Shown: positions 3,165 through 14,878 of the stretch, piece after piece
Position numbering within the stretch: the stretch's first letter is position 1
How the letters are laid out: every line of letters starts with the position of its first letter
IMG/VR virus record: IMGVR_UViG_3300035438_001323
Location: 1-22,651 of that record
DNA from: a virus
Length of the DNA: 22,651 nucleotides
Reading direction: 5' to 3' (one strand)
Translations under genes and position numbers: made by a program
The notes under the pieces: model-generated
Database searches by the model: none
Seen by the model: the letters and a program-made list of their open reading frames with translations, nothing else
Told to the model about the DNA's origin: nothing

Positions 3165-5192
3165 ATGTCTAAAATCCCAGGATCTTTGCCCATCACAGGC
3201 TTTATAGGTACTACCTTTGCAGCCGATACATACCCTACTCACATTGATGAACTTGGTAAGGGTGGCTATAGGTCTGTGTCCAACATAGATGCTAGAAACT
3301 CTATCTCAGCAGAGAGAAGATCTATAGGTATGATGTGTTATGTGTTATCTGAGAGTAAGGCGTATCAGTTAGTTGGTGGTCTTGGTAATGAATTTTGGAA
3401 AGAGTTTGAAGCGATACCGCCTCTTGGAGTATTTAATGTTGCTGGAGTAACTTATCCTGAAATCTTTGTAGGTACTGCTACTGGAAAACCCGAAGCTTCG
3501 CAAAGTTTTGGGTATGCTTTGATTGACTTAGCTTTTTTAAATACTAGGCTTTTAACTGGTAATTTTATAATGGGAGATGCTCCTGTTCAAGCCGCTTGGC
3601 AAGGTGCGCAATTCCTAGCTAATTTACAAGATGGTATTCTAGCTAAAACGGGCTCAACTGTTAGACAGGCTGAATCTGGCGTTGATTTCGTAGATATAAA
3701 TAAACAATTATGTTATGAATATGGCATACCAGTTTGGCTTGCTAATGATAATAAAACACTTACGACCTCAAGACTTAAAATAATTGATGGAAACTTTGAT
3801 GATGGAGATGATCTACAGGGTATAAGAAACTTAACGGCTAAAGGTGGTGTTATAGCAAGAGCTGCTATAACTTCTAACGACTCAGTGTTTGGACTTAACA
3901 ACATTGGTACAAGGGAGCTAAAGATTTACGACAGAACGGATCAAGGAGCTGGAAGACTAACTAGGTCTGTGAACTTCATATCAGCTTATAACTTAGCTGG
4001 AAACGTTAATTTTTATTTACCAGAGACACCTAGTTCTCTTGGTAAAGTATTAGCAGATGTTGGAGAGACTATCTATGATGGCAGAACCTTTAGAAAGCTA
4101 GACTTCGTAGATGTTGCAAGCAATGCGGCTAAGTATATTATACAACAACCCAATGCGAACCTACCAAATGCTCAAGCTTTAGACTCTTTGGGCTTAGGGA
4201 TTGTAAAGACTATAGCTGGTGGAGTGTTAGCTAAAGCCATTGGTGGTACTGATTACGCAACACCTGTAGCACTACAAGAAGAAACGACAGCTAGGATCGA
4301 AGCAGATGGTGTATTAGAGGGTAGTATAGCTACAGTTGCCGCAGAGACTCAAGCTCAAATAACTGCTATAACAGGCTATGGATCTTTGGCTCTTTTGACA
4401 GAGTTTTTAGTAGATATAGGCTGGTCAACTGGATATTCTGAGTATTTATGGAGTAAATATAGACCGCTTAGGACTTATAATAGTTACGCTGATACAGATA
4501 AATACGACAAAGACGGAGGGAATCTTTGGTATGATGCTAGCCATATTGGAGGGGCTGGGGCTTTTAAGCCGGGTTTACGTATTACTTCATGGGATTCTTC
4601 AACGGTCTTTGACAATGATTTGTTCCCAGTTTCTATGGGATTATTTGGCTATAGGAAGCAACTAGGCGTCACGAGTGTTCAAGATGGTATAGTTTGGCAA
4701 AGTTATTTTGAAAATAATAGCTCTAGCCCACATTATAGATTTCCAAAGAACTTTGGTATGTATCATGTAGGACATGATGAGGGTTCTATAGGTTGGAATC
4801 GTCAGGAAAGACTACTCATGGAGTATAGATACTATGATGATAAGTTCTCTTTTGAGAAAAAAACAGAGTTTAACGGCGATGTAATGTTTTTAAGTCAAGG
4901 AATAAAAATACCTGTAGGAACGACAGCTCAAAGACCTCTAAATCCAACTAAAGGATATTTTAGACTTAATACAGACGCTCCAACGCCAGGAGCTGTATCA
5001 ACTGTAAATATTTTTGGTACAGTAAACCAAATTAATGTTACAAGTCCAGTTAATAATAGTTTTAAATTGGCATTTGAAGACAATGTAAAGCTCCCAGGCA
5101 AGGCTTATACTAAAATTGCCGTTGGAACAAGCGAAGATCGACCATTGACTCCAGAAGCTGGGATGATAAGATTTAATAAAAGTTTATATTGA
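3165..5192 (+). CDS. Tail-fibre / head-appendage protein with conserved phage fibre N-terminus
   Basis: The 675-residue protein opens with the GSLPITGFIGTTFAADTYPT ... GKGGYRSV ... RRSIGMMCYV module (residues 5-60), a widespread N-terminal attachment domain of phage fibres. The middle (about 95-360) is beta-rich with a KTIAGGVLAKAIGGTDYATP segment (near 345-365), the repeat style of phage fibre shafts. Residues 370-400 look like a short coiled coil (QEETTARIEADGVLEGSIA). The C-terminus carries two copies of the fibre motif 'vGTtaqRPlnP..G..RfN' (near 584-604 and 653-675). DNA encoding these motifs is nearly identical to the end of the next gene, implying cassette exchange. Start chosen at the ATG one base after the preceding stop. 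Receptor or attachment role is inferred. Confidence 0.7.
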   Translation: MSKIPGSLPITGFIGTTFAADTYPTHIDELGKGGYRSVSNIDARNSISAERRSIGMMCYVLSESKAYQLVGGLGNEFWKEFEAIPPLGVFNVAGVTYPEIFVGTATGKPEASQSFGYALIDLAFLNTRLLTGNFIMGDAPVQAAWQGAQFLANLQDGILAKTGSTVRQAESGVDFVDINKQLCYEYGIPVWLANDNKTLTTSRLKIIDGNFDDGDDLQGIRNLTAKGGVIARAAITSNDSVFGLNNIGTRELKIYDRTDQGAGRLTRSVNFISAYNLAGNVNFYLPETPSSLGKVLADVGETIYDGRTFRKLDFVDVASNAAKYIIQQPNANLPNAQALDSLGLGIVKTIAGGVLAKAIGGTDYATPVALQEETTARIEADGVLEGSIATVAAETQAQITAITGYGSLALLTEFLVDIGWSTGYSEYLWSKYRPLRTYNSYADTDKYDKDGGNLWYDASHIGGAGAFKPGLRITSWDSSTVFDNDLFPVSMGLFGYRKQLGVTSVQDGIVWQSYFENNSSSPHYRFPKNFGMYHVGHDEGSIGWNRQERLLMEYRYYDDKFSFEKKTEFNGDVMFLSQGIKIPVGTTAQRPLNPTKGYFRLNTDAPTPGAVSTVNIFGTVNQINVTSPVNNSFKLAFEDNVKLPGKAYTKIAVGTSEDRPLTPEAGMIRFNKSLY

Positions 5193-5936
5193 TAACATAC
5201 TTTATATAAGTTATATTTAAATTTATTAACAAACGTTTAAATATATGGCTCAATTACCTTTACCAAGGGGAAAACACGAATTTTATGATGATAGTTCTCC
5301 TCCTGTTCTTCATTATACTGCTTCTGAGAACTGGGTTCTTAATAACATTGCCAAAATAAACCCTTGTAACGTTGCTACTACTGCTAATTTAACCTCAATT
5401 TATGCTAATGGGTCAAGTGGAGTTGGAGCAACTTTGACTAATTCTGGAACACAAGCGGTTTTGAATATAGATGGTTTAGCGTTAGCTATAGGCAGTAGGG
5501 TTTTAGTAAAAAACCAGACTACAAACACACAAAATGGTGTATACGTAGTTACTGACGCAGGATCTGCTAGTACTAATTGGGTTTTAACTAGGGTTACTGA
5601 ATTAGATACTTACACACAGTTTTTAAGAGGTCTGACGGTTCAAGTATTTGCAGGAACTACTAACTCTCCTAAAATATTTATGTTAACTAGTTCTGTAACT
5701 GTAAATATTGGGTCTGCAGCTATAGTATTTTCAGAGTTAATATCGTCTGGAATTGCTGGTATACAAGGCACTACTAATCAAATTACTGTTTCAGTAACTG
5801 GGGGAGTAGCAACTTTATCTTTAGCTGCCGATTTGATTTTACCAGGTACTGAAGCGGTTACTTTACCTGTAGGAACGACAGCTCAAAGACCTTTGAATCC
5901 TAGAGTTGGGATGATAAGATTTAATAGAAGTTTATA
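4909..5936 (+). repeat. Near-identical DNA cassettes shared by the ends of two fibre genes
   Basis: Bases 4909-4937 and 5864-5892 are identical over 29 bp and encode PVGTTAQRP. Bases 5159-5188 and 5907-5936 match at 29 of 30 positions and encode GMIRFN(K/R)SL. In the first gene the two pieces lie about 220 bp apart. In the second they lie about 14 bp apart, so the second gene looks like a version with the intervening segment removed. The preserved DNA identity, including synonymous positions, points to recent recombination rather than only protein-level constraint. Confidence 0.75.
5212..5245 (+). repeat. 10-bp AT-only inverted repeat touching a fibre start codon
   Basis: TATATTTAAA at 5212-5221 is the exact reverse complement of 5236-5245, with a 14-base loop. 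The right arm ends on the A of the ATG at 5245. There is no recognisable ribosome-binding site in this 52-bp gap. Both arms lack G and C, so chance in AT-rich DNA is plausible. Confidence 0.35.
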
Positions 5937-7597: not shown

Positions 7598-7637
7598 TAA
7601 AAACAATTAATATAAAAACAATTAAAAAGGTATAAAT

Positions 7638-8135
7638 ATGTCAAAAGAACAAGCTAAAACATGGATTACAATAGAATTCATGCAATTTTATTTAAACGAA
7701 GAAATAGCTCTTATAGCAGATTCTTTAACTGAGCAAAACTTTGTATCGTCAGTATCTGACTTTGTAACTGCGAATAAAGCTATCGCAGAAACTGAAATTA
7801 GAGCCAATCATACACAGGCAGAAGCGGATGTGATAATAGAGCGTCTAGAGAGTTTAAATTATGAGCTTATGAAAATAAATTATTTTAATATATATAACCA
7901 AGTAGTGCCTAATATCCTTCCATTAGATCCAGTTGGTATTGAATATATGGAGTGGATACAAGCTGACATAAATACTTTAAAGAGATATGCTCCTGATATT
8001 TTTGCAGGAGGCATGGATGCAAACGAAGATAGTACTAAAGCAAAAATACAAGCTGCTTTAAAAGCACTATCAGAGTTACAAGATGATATTACAACTTTAA
8101 AGACTATATTAGAGTCTTTAAACAACAAGGCTTGA
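7638..8135 (+). CDS. Unknown helical protein downstream of fibre genes
   Basis: I do not recognise this 165-residue protein. It is acidic and mostly helical. It has an Ala/Glu/Ile-rich region near 50-85 (AIAETEIRANHTQAEADVII) and a C-terminal segment with a heptad pattern (IQAALKALSELQDDITTLK) that should form a coiled coil. There is no signal peptide, no transmembrane helix and no cysteine. A good ribosome-binding site (AAAAAGGT, 7624-7631) precedes the ATG, unlike the fibre genes upstream, so it may be translated more independently. Lying just after a fibre gene with a lectin-like tip, it occupies the position typical of a fibre-assembly chaperone. That is a positional guess only. A structural component is equally possible. 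Confidence 0.55.
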   Translation: MSKEQAKTWITIEFMQFYLNEEIALIADSLTEQNFVSSVSDFVTANKAIAETEIRANHTQAEADVIIERLESLNYELMKINYFNIYNQVVPNILPLDPVGIEYMEWIQADINTLKRYAPDIFAGGMDANEDSTKAKIQAALKALSELQDDITTLKTILESLNNKA

Positions 8136-8159
8136 AGCGAGATAAATAAACACTATATT
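8132..8159 (+). promoter_or_regulatory. Possible sigma70-type promoter
   Basis: TTGAAG (8132-8137) and TATATT (8154-8159) are separated by 16 bp, in the gap before the 72-residue gene. The same CTTGAAG hexamer context occurs in the better candidate at 9649. It partly overlaps the previous gene's stop. AT-richness makes chance matches common. Confidence 0.3.
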
Positions 8160-8190
8160 ATATATACAACCAACAAATAAAGAGAAACTT

Positions 8191-8409
8191 ATGAAAAAAG
8201 AAACATATAATGCTTTAAACGAAGCTGTATCATCTTTAGCAACTAATACAAATATTATTCATAGCGATATATCTTCACTAATAAGACTATTTGATGAAAA
8301 TAGGAAACAACTAATTATAAGTAGCCTTACAACTATAAAAGATAGAATTGATTTCTTAGAAACTGAGATTAATTTAATTGATGCAAAGAATCATTTTATC
8401 GAAGCTTAA
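8191..8409 (+). CDS. Small helical protein of unknown function
   Basis: A 72-residue protein with a purine-rich ribosome-binding site (AAAGAGAAA, 8179-8187) just before its ATG. Nearly the whole length is predicted helix with hydrophobic residues at heptad spacing (ISSLIRLFDENRKQLIISSL, then IKDRIDFLETEINLID), so a small coiled-coil oligomer is likely. No cysteine, signal or membrane segment. I do not recognise the family. It lies between the unknown 165-residue gene and the orphan lipoprotein. Confidence 0.5.
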   Translation: MKKETYNALNEAVSSLATNTNIIHSDISSLIRLFDENRKQLIISSLTTIKDRIDFLETEINLIDAKNHFIEA

Positions 8410-8425
8410 TTGCTTGTATTGCTTA

Positions 8426-8476
8426 ATCATGTTAAACTACTTAACAAATAATAACGAATAAGTAGTTTAACATGAT
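8426..8476 (+). promoter_or_regulatory. 18-bp perfect inverted repeat enclosing a start codon
   Basis: The left arm (8426-8443, ATCATGTTAAACTACTTA) is the exact reverse complement of the right arm (8459-8476), with a 15-base loop at 8444-8458. The ATG of the downstream lipoprotein gene (8472-8474) lies wholly inside the right arm, so in the mRNA the start would be base-paired. No T-run follows the stem on either strand, so it does not look like an intrinsic terminator. The options are translational control of the lipoprotein, a dyad operator, or an RNA-processing site. Confidence 0.7.
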
Positions 8477-8717
8477 AAAAACAACATATATATTTTTAAT
8501 AATGTTTATGTTAAATGGCTGTTGTACGGCTGGTACTTTAAACTTTCCACCATCTCTTGATTATAGAAGCGACGAGCTTAACGAGCAATTAAAGCATATA
8601 TGTGAATTTGATAATTGCGATCATATATATGATTACTTTAATAAAACAGATAACTTTATACTAAAGTATCGATTTTTCGTAAAAAAGTATGAAAACAAAA
8701 TTGTCATATTAGAATAA
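8472..8717 (+). CDS. Orphan o-spanin-like outer-membrane lipoprotein
   Basis: An 81-residue protein with a short hydrophobic signal (YIFLIMFML) and a lipobox LNGC, Cys at residue 17, so it should be lipidated and exported. The mature part carries NFPPSLDY, LKHIC and DYFNK. It resembles the mature part of the o-spanin at 14564-14878: both have NFP, then L-x-H-x-C, a second Cys a few residues later, then I-x-x-Y-x-NK and a Tyr/Lys-rich end. It therefore looks like a second Rz1-type protein. Unlike Rz1 it is not paired with an i-spanin; the preceding small gene has no membrane segment. Its ATG is buried in an 18-bp inverted repeat with no clear ribosome-binding site, and an in-frame TAG at 8463-8465 rules out an earlier start. 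The stop overlaps the minor head start (TAATG). Confidence 0.6.
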   Translation: MIKTTYIFLIMFMLNGCCTAGTLNFPPSLDYRSDELNEQLKHICEFDNCDHIYDYFNKTDNFILKYRFFVKKYENKIVILE

Positions 8718-9559
8718 TGAAACTTGGAAGATTAATCTTATCACCTACAGTAATTGAGATTGCTTATGCTACTTGTCTCTCATCTATGATGAAAGAGACT
8801 ATCCAAATCATCAAGAATGACTATATAGGAAACTTATCAAAGTGGAATAAATCTAATAGATTAGATTCAATTTCTATGATTCACAATGATGATTACATAG
8901 ACGATATGCAAAAAATGCAAAAGAAGACAGAGAAGCTCTTAAACATGGATAATGTTATGGTGTCTGCTTGTGTGTTACTTTTTGGAAAAAGGCTTCTAAG
9001 ATACTCTAAAAAGCAGGTTAAGCAGTCTGTAAAAAAGATGCGTGATGAAGATTCTGGAGACAAAAAAGATCTAGATCAAATGCTTAGATCCTTCATTAGC
9101 TCTAATTTGGACTTAATGAAGATCATGAGAAAGAATCTTGTTTATAAGACTGTTAAGACAATAAAGGATGGTTTTGCTTCTGGAGATGATTTAGAAGATA
9201 TCGAAGAGCGGATATTAGATGATATAGATTCTGCTGAAAATTACTTAAAGTTTAATGCTAAAGAGCAGATAAAAGATCTGCACATAAATTACTCAAGATA
9301 TAAGTTAGTCAAATTGGGTATATATGGGTACATATGGGTAGATGTTGGAGATAATAGAGTTAGACCTAGTCACAGAGTTTTGAATCAAAAAATCATGAGC
9401 TGGAAAGATCCAGATATCTATAGAACCCGCGGAAATGATAAATGGAGAAAGAAATCTTCGATCGGTGGTGTTCAAAAGCAAGTAGGTGAAGACTATGGAT
9501 GTAGATGTGGCTTTATACCTATAATTTCTTTTTTTGATAATGATAATGATTTAGACTAA
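8717..9559 (+). CDS. Minor head protein, SPP1 gp7 / Mu gpF family
   Basis: Head morphogenesis protein that in related phages binds the portal and enters the procapsid with it. The family signature is in the C-terminal third: GYIWVDVGDNRVRPSHRVLN (about 204-223), a WKDPDIY segment near 229-235, and the closing VGEDYGCRCGFIPI with two cysteines (about 256-269). The N-terminal 200 residues are helical and charged, as usual. At 280 residues the length is normal for the family. It starts on a TAATG overlap with the lipoprotein gene, so its expression may be tied to that gene. In most phages with a DUF1073 portal this gene is next to the portal. Here about 6.9 kb of fibre-like genes lie between them. 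Confidence 0.88.
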   Translation: MKLGRLILSPTVIEIAYATCLSSMMKETIQIIKNDYIGNLSKWNKSNRLDSISMIHNDDYIDDMQKMQKKTEKLLNMDNVMVSACVLLFGKRLLRYSKKQVKQSVKKMRDEDSGDKKDLDQMLRSFISSNLDLMKIMRKNLVYKTVKTIKDGFASGDDLEDIEERILDDIDSAENYLKFNAKEQIKDLHINYSRYKLVKLGIYGYIWVDVGDNRVRPSHRVLNQKIMSWKDPDIYRTRGNDKWRKKSSIGGVQKQVGEDYGCRCGFIPIISFFDNDNDLD

Positions 9560-9565
9560 ATATTT

Positions 9566-9620
9566 ACTATATATAGTGTTAAAAATCTATAGATATGTAT
9601 TTACCCACTATATATAGTGG
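9566..9620 (+). promoter_or_regulatory. Pair of palindromes, candidate operator sites
   Basis: ACTATATATAGT (9566-9577) and CCACTATATATAGTGG (9605-9620) are both perfect palindromes that share ACTATATATAGTG. Their equivalent positions are 41 bp apart, close to four helical turns, which would place both on the same DNA face. They sit 29 bp or more upstream of the promoter-like sequence at 9649-9677, in the largest gap of the plus-strand module. A dimeric regulator binding both sites is a reasonable inference. The 16-bp copy could also form a weak hairpin ending the preceding transcript. Confidence 0.45.
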
Positions 9621-14563: not shown

Positions 14564-14878
14564 TTATTTAGTTTTTTGATATTTTATAGAGTCTTTATAT
14601 ATAGTATAGACTGCTTTAAATTTATATAATTTATTGATATAATTATTGATATTAACGCAATGATCTGGGTTGTCTAAACAAGCATGTTCTAAATCATCTG
14701 CAAATTCTTTATTAGGAATTGGAAAGTCTGGAAAGTTATAAGGATAAATAGTATTAGAATTCTCCTTTGCGCATCCGCTTAATATTTGACTTAAGATCAA
14801 CATCTTCAATAGAATTGATAGTATCGATAACTTTTTCCTGAGTATGTATAACATTTTTTTGATTATTAACTTCAACAT
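14564..14878 (-). CDS. Outer-membrane lipoprotein spanin (o-spanin, Rz1-like)
   Basis: Predicted lipoprotein with lipobox LSGC, Cys36, after a long basic and hydrophobic leader. The mature domain begins with a Pro-rich stretch (YPYNFPDFPIPN) typical of Rz1 proteins and carries LEHAC and a further Cys. It would be anchored in the outer membrane and join the i-spanin across the periplasm to fuse the two membranes at lysis. Its 5' 125 bases overlap the i-spanin gene in another frame, the arrangement known for Rz/Rz1. ATG at 14878 has a weak GAAAG site upstream. An ATG at 14854 would give a more normal 27-residue leader but has no such site. The C-terminal stop lies directly against the terminase stop. 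Confidence 0.75.
   Translation of the reverse strand: MLKLIIKKMLYILRKKLSILSILLKMLILSQILSGCAKENSNTIYPYNFPDFPIPNKEFADDLEHACLDNPDHCVNINNYINKLYKFKAVYTIYKDSIKYQKTK

Follow-up and report, generated by a model that had tools for sequence, protein, structure and literature searches.

A stem-loop that buries a lipoprotein start codon between the fibre and head genes of an uncultivated phage: a possible translational brake

T4-type hairpins that sequester a translation start are described for I-TevI, soc, e and segB, and for mobE of Aeh1 (PMC2988022). In the intron-endonuclease cases of T4 it is the Shine-Dalgarno (SD) sequence that is hidden, and a late promoter gives short transcripts from which part of the stem is missing (PMC2988022). 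A stem immediately 5' of a start codon may also aid translation, as in T4 genes 38 and 25, where it brings an upstream SD near the AUG (PMC3014915). Like the first group, the locus considered here has a stem that, on a presumably long polycistronic phage message, covers the point at which translation of one gene begins; with genes 38 and 25 it shares the position of the stem next to the start codon. Unlike the intron-endonuclease cases, it has no SD, and its left arm and loop gave no sign of a conserved promoter; unlike genes 38 and 25, it has no SD-like sequence before the left arm (an SD core is absent from 8400-8425, cgaagcttaattgcttgtattgctta) and its AUG is inside the stem. It is probably best regarded as a start-occluding hairpin similar in action to the T4 ones, of a general type already known, and not as a member of the T4 switch class.

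The stretch of DNA analysed (‘the window’) is a 22,651-bp IMG/VR virus record from an uncultivated phage, in a phage group without any cultured member. Its + strand carries, in order, portal, fibre-like genes, a 165-aa gene, a 72-aa gene, the lipoprotein gene, a MuF-like gene, protease, capsid genes and terminase, with the lysis and baseplate genes on the - strand (Table 1 gives the features next to the hairpin). Portal, fibre, lipoprotein, MuF and head genes are presumably carried on one polycistronic message. In a distant relative (L014) MuF directly follows portal and the fibre module is absent, so the fibre genes and the lipoprotein gene look like an insert between portal and MuF. The MuF ATG overlaps the lipoprotein stop (TAATG) in the window, as it does in the relatives L006 and L007, and in L005 the MuF start comes 4 nt after the stop. 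Two other features of the window may be mentioned. The gap between MuF and protease (9549-9620) holds a cluster of short palindromes, with perfect arms at 9566-9578 and 9606-9618, and is perhaps a promoter region; and the fibre genes have near-identical C-terminal segments at 4909-5188 and 5864-5936 (PVGTTAQRPLNP and GMIRFN), possibly a tag for recombination or trimerisation.

Table 1. The hairpin and the genes on either side of it in the window
Feature	Positions	Strand	Remarks
72-aa gene	8191-8409	+	upstream; 16 nt separate its stop from the stem (7 nt in L007)
Left (5') arm, ATCATGTTAAACTACTTA	8426-8443	+	intergenic; exact reverse complement of 8459-8476
Loop, 15 nt, ACAAATAATAACGAA	8444-8458	+	orientation apparently inverted in relative L007
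Right (3') arm	8459-8476	+	contains in-frame TAG (8463-8465) and ATG (8472-8474)
Lipoprotein gene, 81 aa, lipobox LNGC	8472-8717	+	distant paralogue of the phage's o-spanin
MuF-like minor head protein	8717-9559	+	PHROG 324, head morphogenesis, E 6e-31; without SD

With loops of up to 40 nt allowed, no other perfect inverted repeat in the window is as long as the 18-bp one; when the window was simulated 80 times with an order-2 Markov model, arms went up to 15 and never to 16. The preliminary description had given perfect arms, the 15-base loop and an ATG within the right arm, all of which hold, and a fold of the mRNA proves strong: + strand RNA from 8400 to 8520 folds at -31.2 kcal/mol (z -5.65), and that from 8410 to 8490 has z -6.6, with an MFE of -21.7 kcal/mol over ~80 nt. 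By computation the lipoprotein start is the least accessible among the 25 genes of the window, its mean unpaired probability being 0.12 over -12 to +5 and 0.00 for the ATG; the occlusion of a start region by a stable stem that characterizes T4-type switches is thus found here in the computed fold. Given the in-frame TAG in the right arm, the ATG at 8472 is the earliest possible lipoprotein start. The ribosome-binding site said earlier to be missing is literally so (no SD at the lipoprotein gene, whose best duplex is -1.9 kcal/mol), but this is not distinctive, the anti-SD duplex being weaker than -2 kcal/mol in 15 of the 25 window genes, among which the lipoprotein gene is mid-range.

Several other ways of accounting for the repeat were set aside. 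There is no Rfam match in the entire window. An intrinsic terminator is rejected: as the preliminary description had it, no T-run follows the stem on either strand, a scan finds no terminator-like site there, and neither a G+C-rich stem nor a U-tract is present. An assembly or amplification artefact is rejected also, the stem being present in contigs of separate metagenome samples (3300042562, 3300042691 and 3300031857). A leader peptide is disfavoured; the 10-codon frame that opens at an ATG at 8429 in the left arm and ends at 8459-8461 is kept in L005 and comes down to 3 codons in L007.

That the gene whose start is hidden is o-spanin-like, as was claimed, is borne out. The phage's own o-spanin (14564-14878, - strand) matches the lipoprotein in a pairwise BLASTP comparison at E 2e-4, the two families match in hhalign at E 3.5e-6 (probability 87.5%), and cysteines are common to both; for that o-spanin family the name itself comes from the lipobox and from the overlap with an i-spanin-like gene next to lysozyme, and no family match stands behind it. 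The lipoprotein family has no Pfam assignment above cut-off and none from NCBIfam or PHROGs, and a protein-match search for the lipoprotein found nothing. Its lipoboxes, read by eye, are LNGC (window), LSSC (L007) and LSAC (L006), as an o-spanin should have, and LNGC is among the deviating o-spanin and u-spanin lipoboxes listed in PMC6139136. The resemblance to the o-spanins treated there lies in small size, the LNGC lipobox, cysteines after the lipobox and homology to the phage's own o-spanin. Unlike them, the window lipoprotein is located between fibre and head genes without an adjacent i-spanin, its neighbours being the 72-aa gene and MuF and no i-spanin gene being paired with it. The phage thus has a pair of related lipoproteins: the o-spanin, whose gene overlaps an i-spanin-like one next to lysozyme, and an orphan copy in the head operon. 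Protection from a harmful o-spanin, as had been suggested, does not fully account for the stem; the lipoprotein frame of L005 is reduced by an internal deletion to 46 aa and lacks the Cys domain, and the stem is still present.

No more than three independent copies of the hairpin were found: that of the window (L003, L004 and L009 are nearly identical to it), that of L005 and L010, and that of L007. Searches for additional ones with the 72-aa, 165-aa, lipoprotein, MuF and terminase genes were negative, the genome contigs collection yielded no relative by terminase or 72-aa gene, and there was no DNA match to 7600-9600 in named phages. A pattern match in L011 was rejected as unrelated (it is a different phage, and a T-run follows the stem, which is therefore terminator-like), and the exact coincidence of the L006 and L008 contig starts with start codons, which may come from gene-boundary trimming, is not counted as evidence. 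In L005 all 18 pairs are kept, its three one-sided changes all giving G-U in the + strand RNA, and the fold is -18.4 kcal/mol (z -4.7, ~80 nt) on the + strand and -11.9 kcal/mol on the - strand. In L007 17 of the 18 pairs are kept, with one mid-stem mismatch and three pairs gained at the loop end (MFE -20.7 kcal/mol, z -6.7, ~80 nt). Related phages that lacked the stem or broke it by changes in one arm had been named as the finding that would count against a role for it; the outcome speaks for the stem, since across the three sequences 98% of pair cells are kept and the single broken pair is that of L007. Each of the three phages has its start codon at the base of the stem (in L007 it is re-created 3 nt downstream and in frame), and an 11-bp core of the stem is invariant. 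Pair 8428-8474 is C-G in the window, U-G in L005 and, by a two-sided change, U-A in L007. The comparison of arms in relatives that the preliminary description proposed accordingly finds the stem itself kept in L005 and L007, and covariation that is not significant: with three independent sequences 339 of 500 shuffles reach the observed level, so covariation alone proves nothing.

How constrained, then, are the arms? Window and L005, and likewise window and L007, differ at 3 of 36 arm positions; in the left arm taken alone, the two relatives depart from the window at 1-2 of 18. Synonymous divergence (pS) is 0.25-0.27 in the adjacent 72-aa gene and ~0.6 in the lipoprotein gene. If synonymous change is taken as the neutral yardstick, the chance of at most three changes in 36 is about 0.005-0.011, and arm conservation is marginal (P 0.05) when the yardstick is how far the 72-aa gene has diverged as a whole (~0.2). 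Coding constraint cannot account for the conservation of the left arm, since that arm is non-coding.

The loop has fared differently from the arms. That of L007 agrees with that of the window at 6 of 15 positions directly and at 11 of 15 when compared with the reverse complement; in direct alignment 9 of 15 positions differ, far above the surroundings, and over the 58-nt element there are 49 matches inverted versus 45 direct. The inverted match has a permutation p of 0.009 against the window and 0.005 against L005, for one case of 15 nt. This points to spacer inversion by template switching, which is known to invert the spacer of short inverted repeats and to homogenise their arms (PMC8604942); microinversions are also known in plastid stem-loops (PMC3123225). 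As in the cases taken from these sources, the L007 loop looks inverted and the arms are kept; unlike them, the present one is in a phage, between coding genes, and is seen once, in a 15-nt loop. The spacer inversion between arms that typifies a template-switch palindrome is found in this one case, and within each genome the two arms match perfectly in the window, apart from three G-U pairs in L005 and apart from one mismatch in L007. With the loop apparently flipped in L007 and the stem kept, loop sequence and orientation are probably non-functional; and because template switching can homogenise arms, the change seen on both sides in L007 may go back to copying and not to two selected changes. 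Natural loop inversion is a way to separate constraint at the level of the stem from that on loop sequence, with the warning that template switching can mimic compensatory changes in palindromes.

The reading that we favour, tentatively and at a probability of about 0.45, is that the stem is a cis-acting mRNA element that throttles translation of the lipoprotein gene, and perhaps also of a coupled MuF. The repeat would act as RNA, an 18-bp stem-loop on the polycistronic + strand message, with the location of the lipoprotein start codon within the 3' arm making for low initiation at that gene. Since MuF is without an SD and starts at or near the lipoprotein stop, reinitiation at the stop-start overlap could pass the brake on, and the stem would then also keep MuF low relative to the upstream fibre genes; such coupling would explain why the stem has been retained in L005 despite the truncated lipoprotein. 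The junction of lipoprotein and MuF resembles termination-reinitiation coupling (PMC6728339) in its TAATG without an SD; unlike that system, the coupling is here presumed, and the junction of the 72-aa and lipoprotein genes is not a stop-start overlap, the two being 62 nt apart. Opening of the stem could be brought about by ribosomes arriving from the 72-aa gene or by cleavage of the message. If this is right, the locus is a compact case of one RNA stem in a structural operon restraining a lipoprotein, possibly together with a minor head protein, beside abundant fibre genes. A fuller version, which we think unlikely, would make the stem, with its pairing kept and its loop free to flip, a translational dose-setter at the join of fibre module and head operon that controls both a lipoprotein derived from an o-spanin and, by way of the stop-start coupling, MuF, the truncated L005 frame persisting as a translational leader for MuF.

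Is the burial of the ATG what the stem is kept for? It would be a side effect if the stem were an element of message processing or stability, placed where the fibre-gene message has its 3' limit and either cut by a double-strand RNase or holding up 3'-5' decay, so that fibre and head expression would differ. Persistence of the stem next to a truncated lipoprotein in L005, the unconserved and apparently flipped loop, and location at the end of a fibre module that the distant relative lacks (portal there being followed by MuF) would all suit such an element, but it would not need a start codon at the stem base, which is seen in all three phages, and we consider it a distinctly less probable account than the translational brake. 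It is less probable again that the palindrome is maintained by mutation, through template switching, and not by selection, with no function in the message. The inverted L007 loop, with its permutation values, and the mechanism as set out in PMC8604942 are in keeping with this, as is the two-sided change in L007, which would result if a left arm like that of L005 had been copied into the right one; however, homogenisation acts within a genome, yet between phages the arms differ at so few positions, and the three changes left uncorrected in L005 are all G-U on the + strand.

The preliminary description had also offered a timing switch and a DNA dyad for a regulator, both of which now seem improbable. 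In a switch of the T4 type the stem would be closed on long early or middle messages, and transcription begun later, from a promoter within the left arm or loop, would give short messages with the ATG free. T4 has established switches of this kind at I-TevI, soc, e and other genes (PMC2988022), and the lipoprotein is o-spanin-like, but no direct sign of one was found here: an SD that could be exposed is lacking, the loop is unconserved, and no sigma-70-like site on the + strand would start transcripts within the hairpin. The scan in question, by sigma-70 consensus, gave no conserved promoter in left arm or loop, with the proviso that the consensus may not match the late promoter type of this phage; the nearest + strand site (8467-8494) was rejected, since transcripts from it would begin past the ATG and, judged by eye, neither L005 nor L007 retains it. 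Least probable of all, by a small step, is a DNA dyad, or a weak terminator or attenuator. The perfect arms of the window and the invariant core speak for a dyad, whereas L005 breaks DNA symmetry three times in ways that keep + strand RNA pairing, and the window has no excess of the half-site TTAAACTA, with 4 copies where chance predicts 4.1; the absent U-tract and the A+T-rich stem go against a terminator or attenuator.

Some features of the related genomes were seen in passing. Between window and L005 there is a sharp mosaic boundary at window positions 8706-8720, identity being ~81% upstream (fibre-side genes and hairpin) and ~97% from the MuF start onward, and the segment upstream of MuF seems, from this pattern of identity, to have been exchanged. 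L010, a close relative, has at 8407-9372, in the same operon place, a different major capsid protein (321 aa versus 356 aa in the window). In L008 (1-900) the MuF gene is frameshifted by a short deletion, with a short tandem duplication just after it. In the tail operon of the relative L006, a small structural-type gene is overlapped by a gene for a 383-aa MFS-type transporter (L029, 12185-13336, - strand); the superfamily match of the transporter, TIGR00880 at E 4e-8, is a weak one below cut-off.
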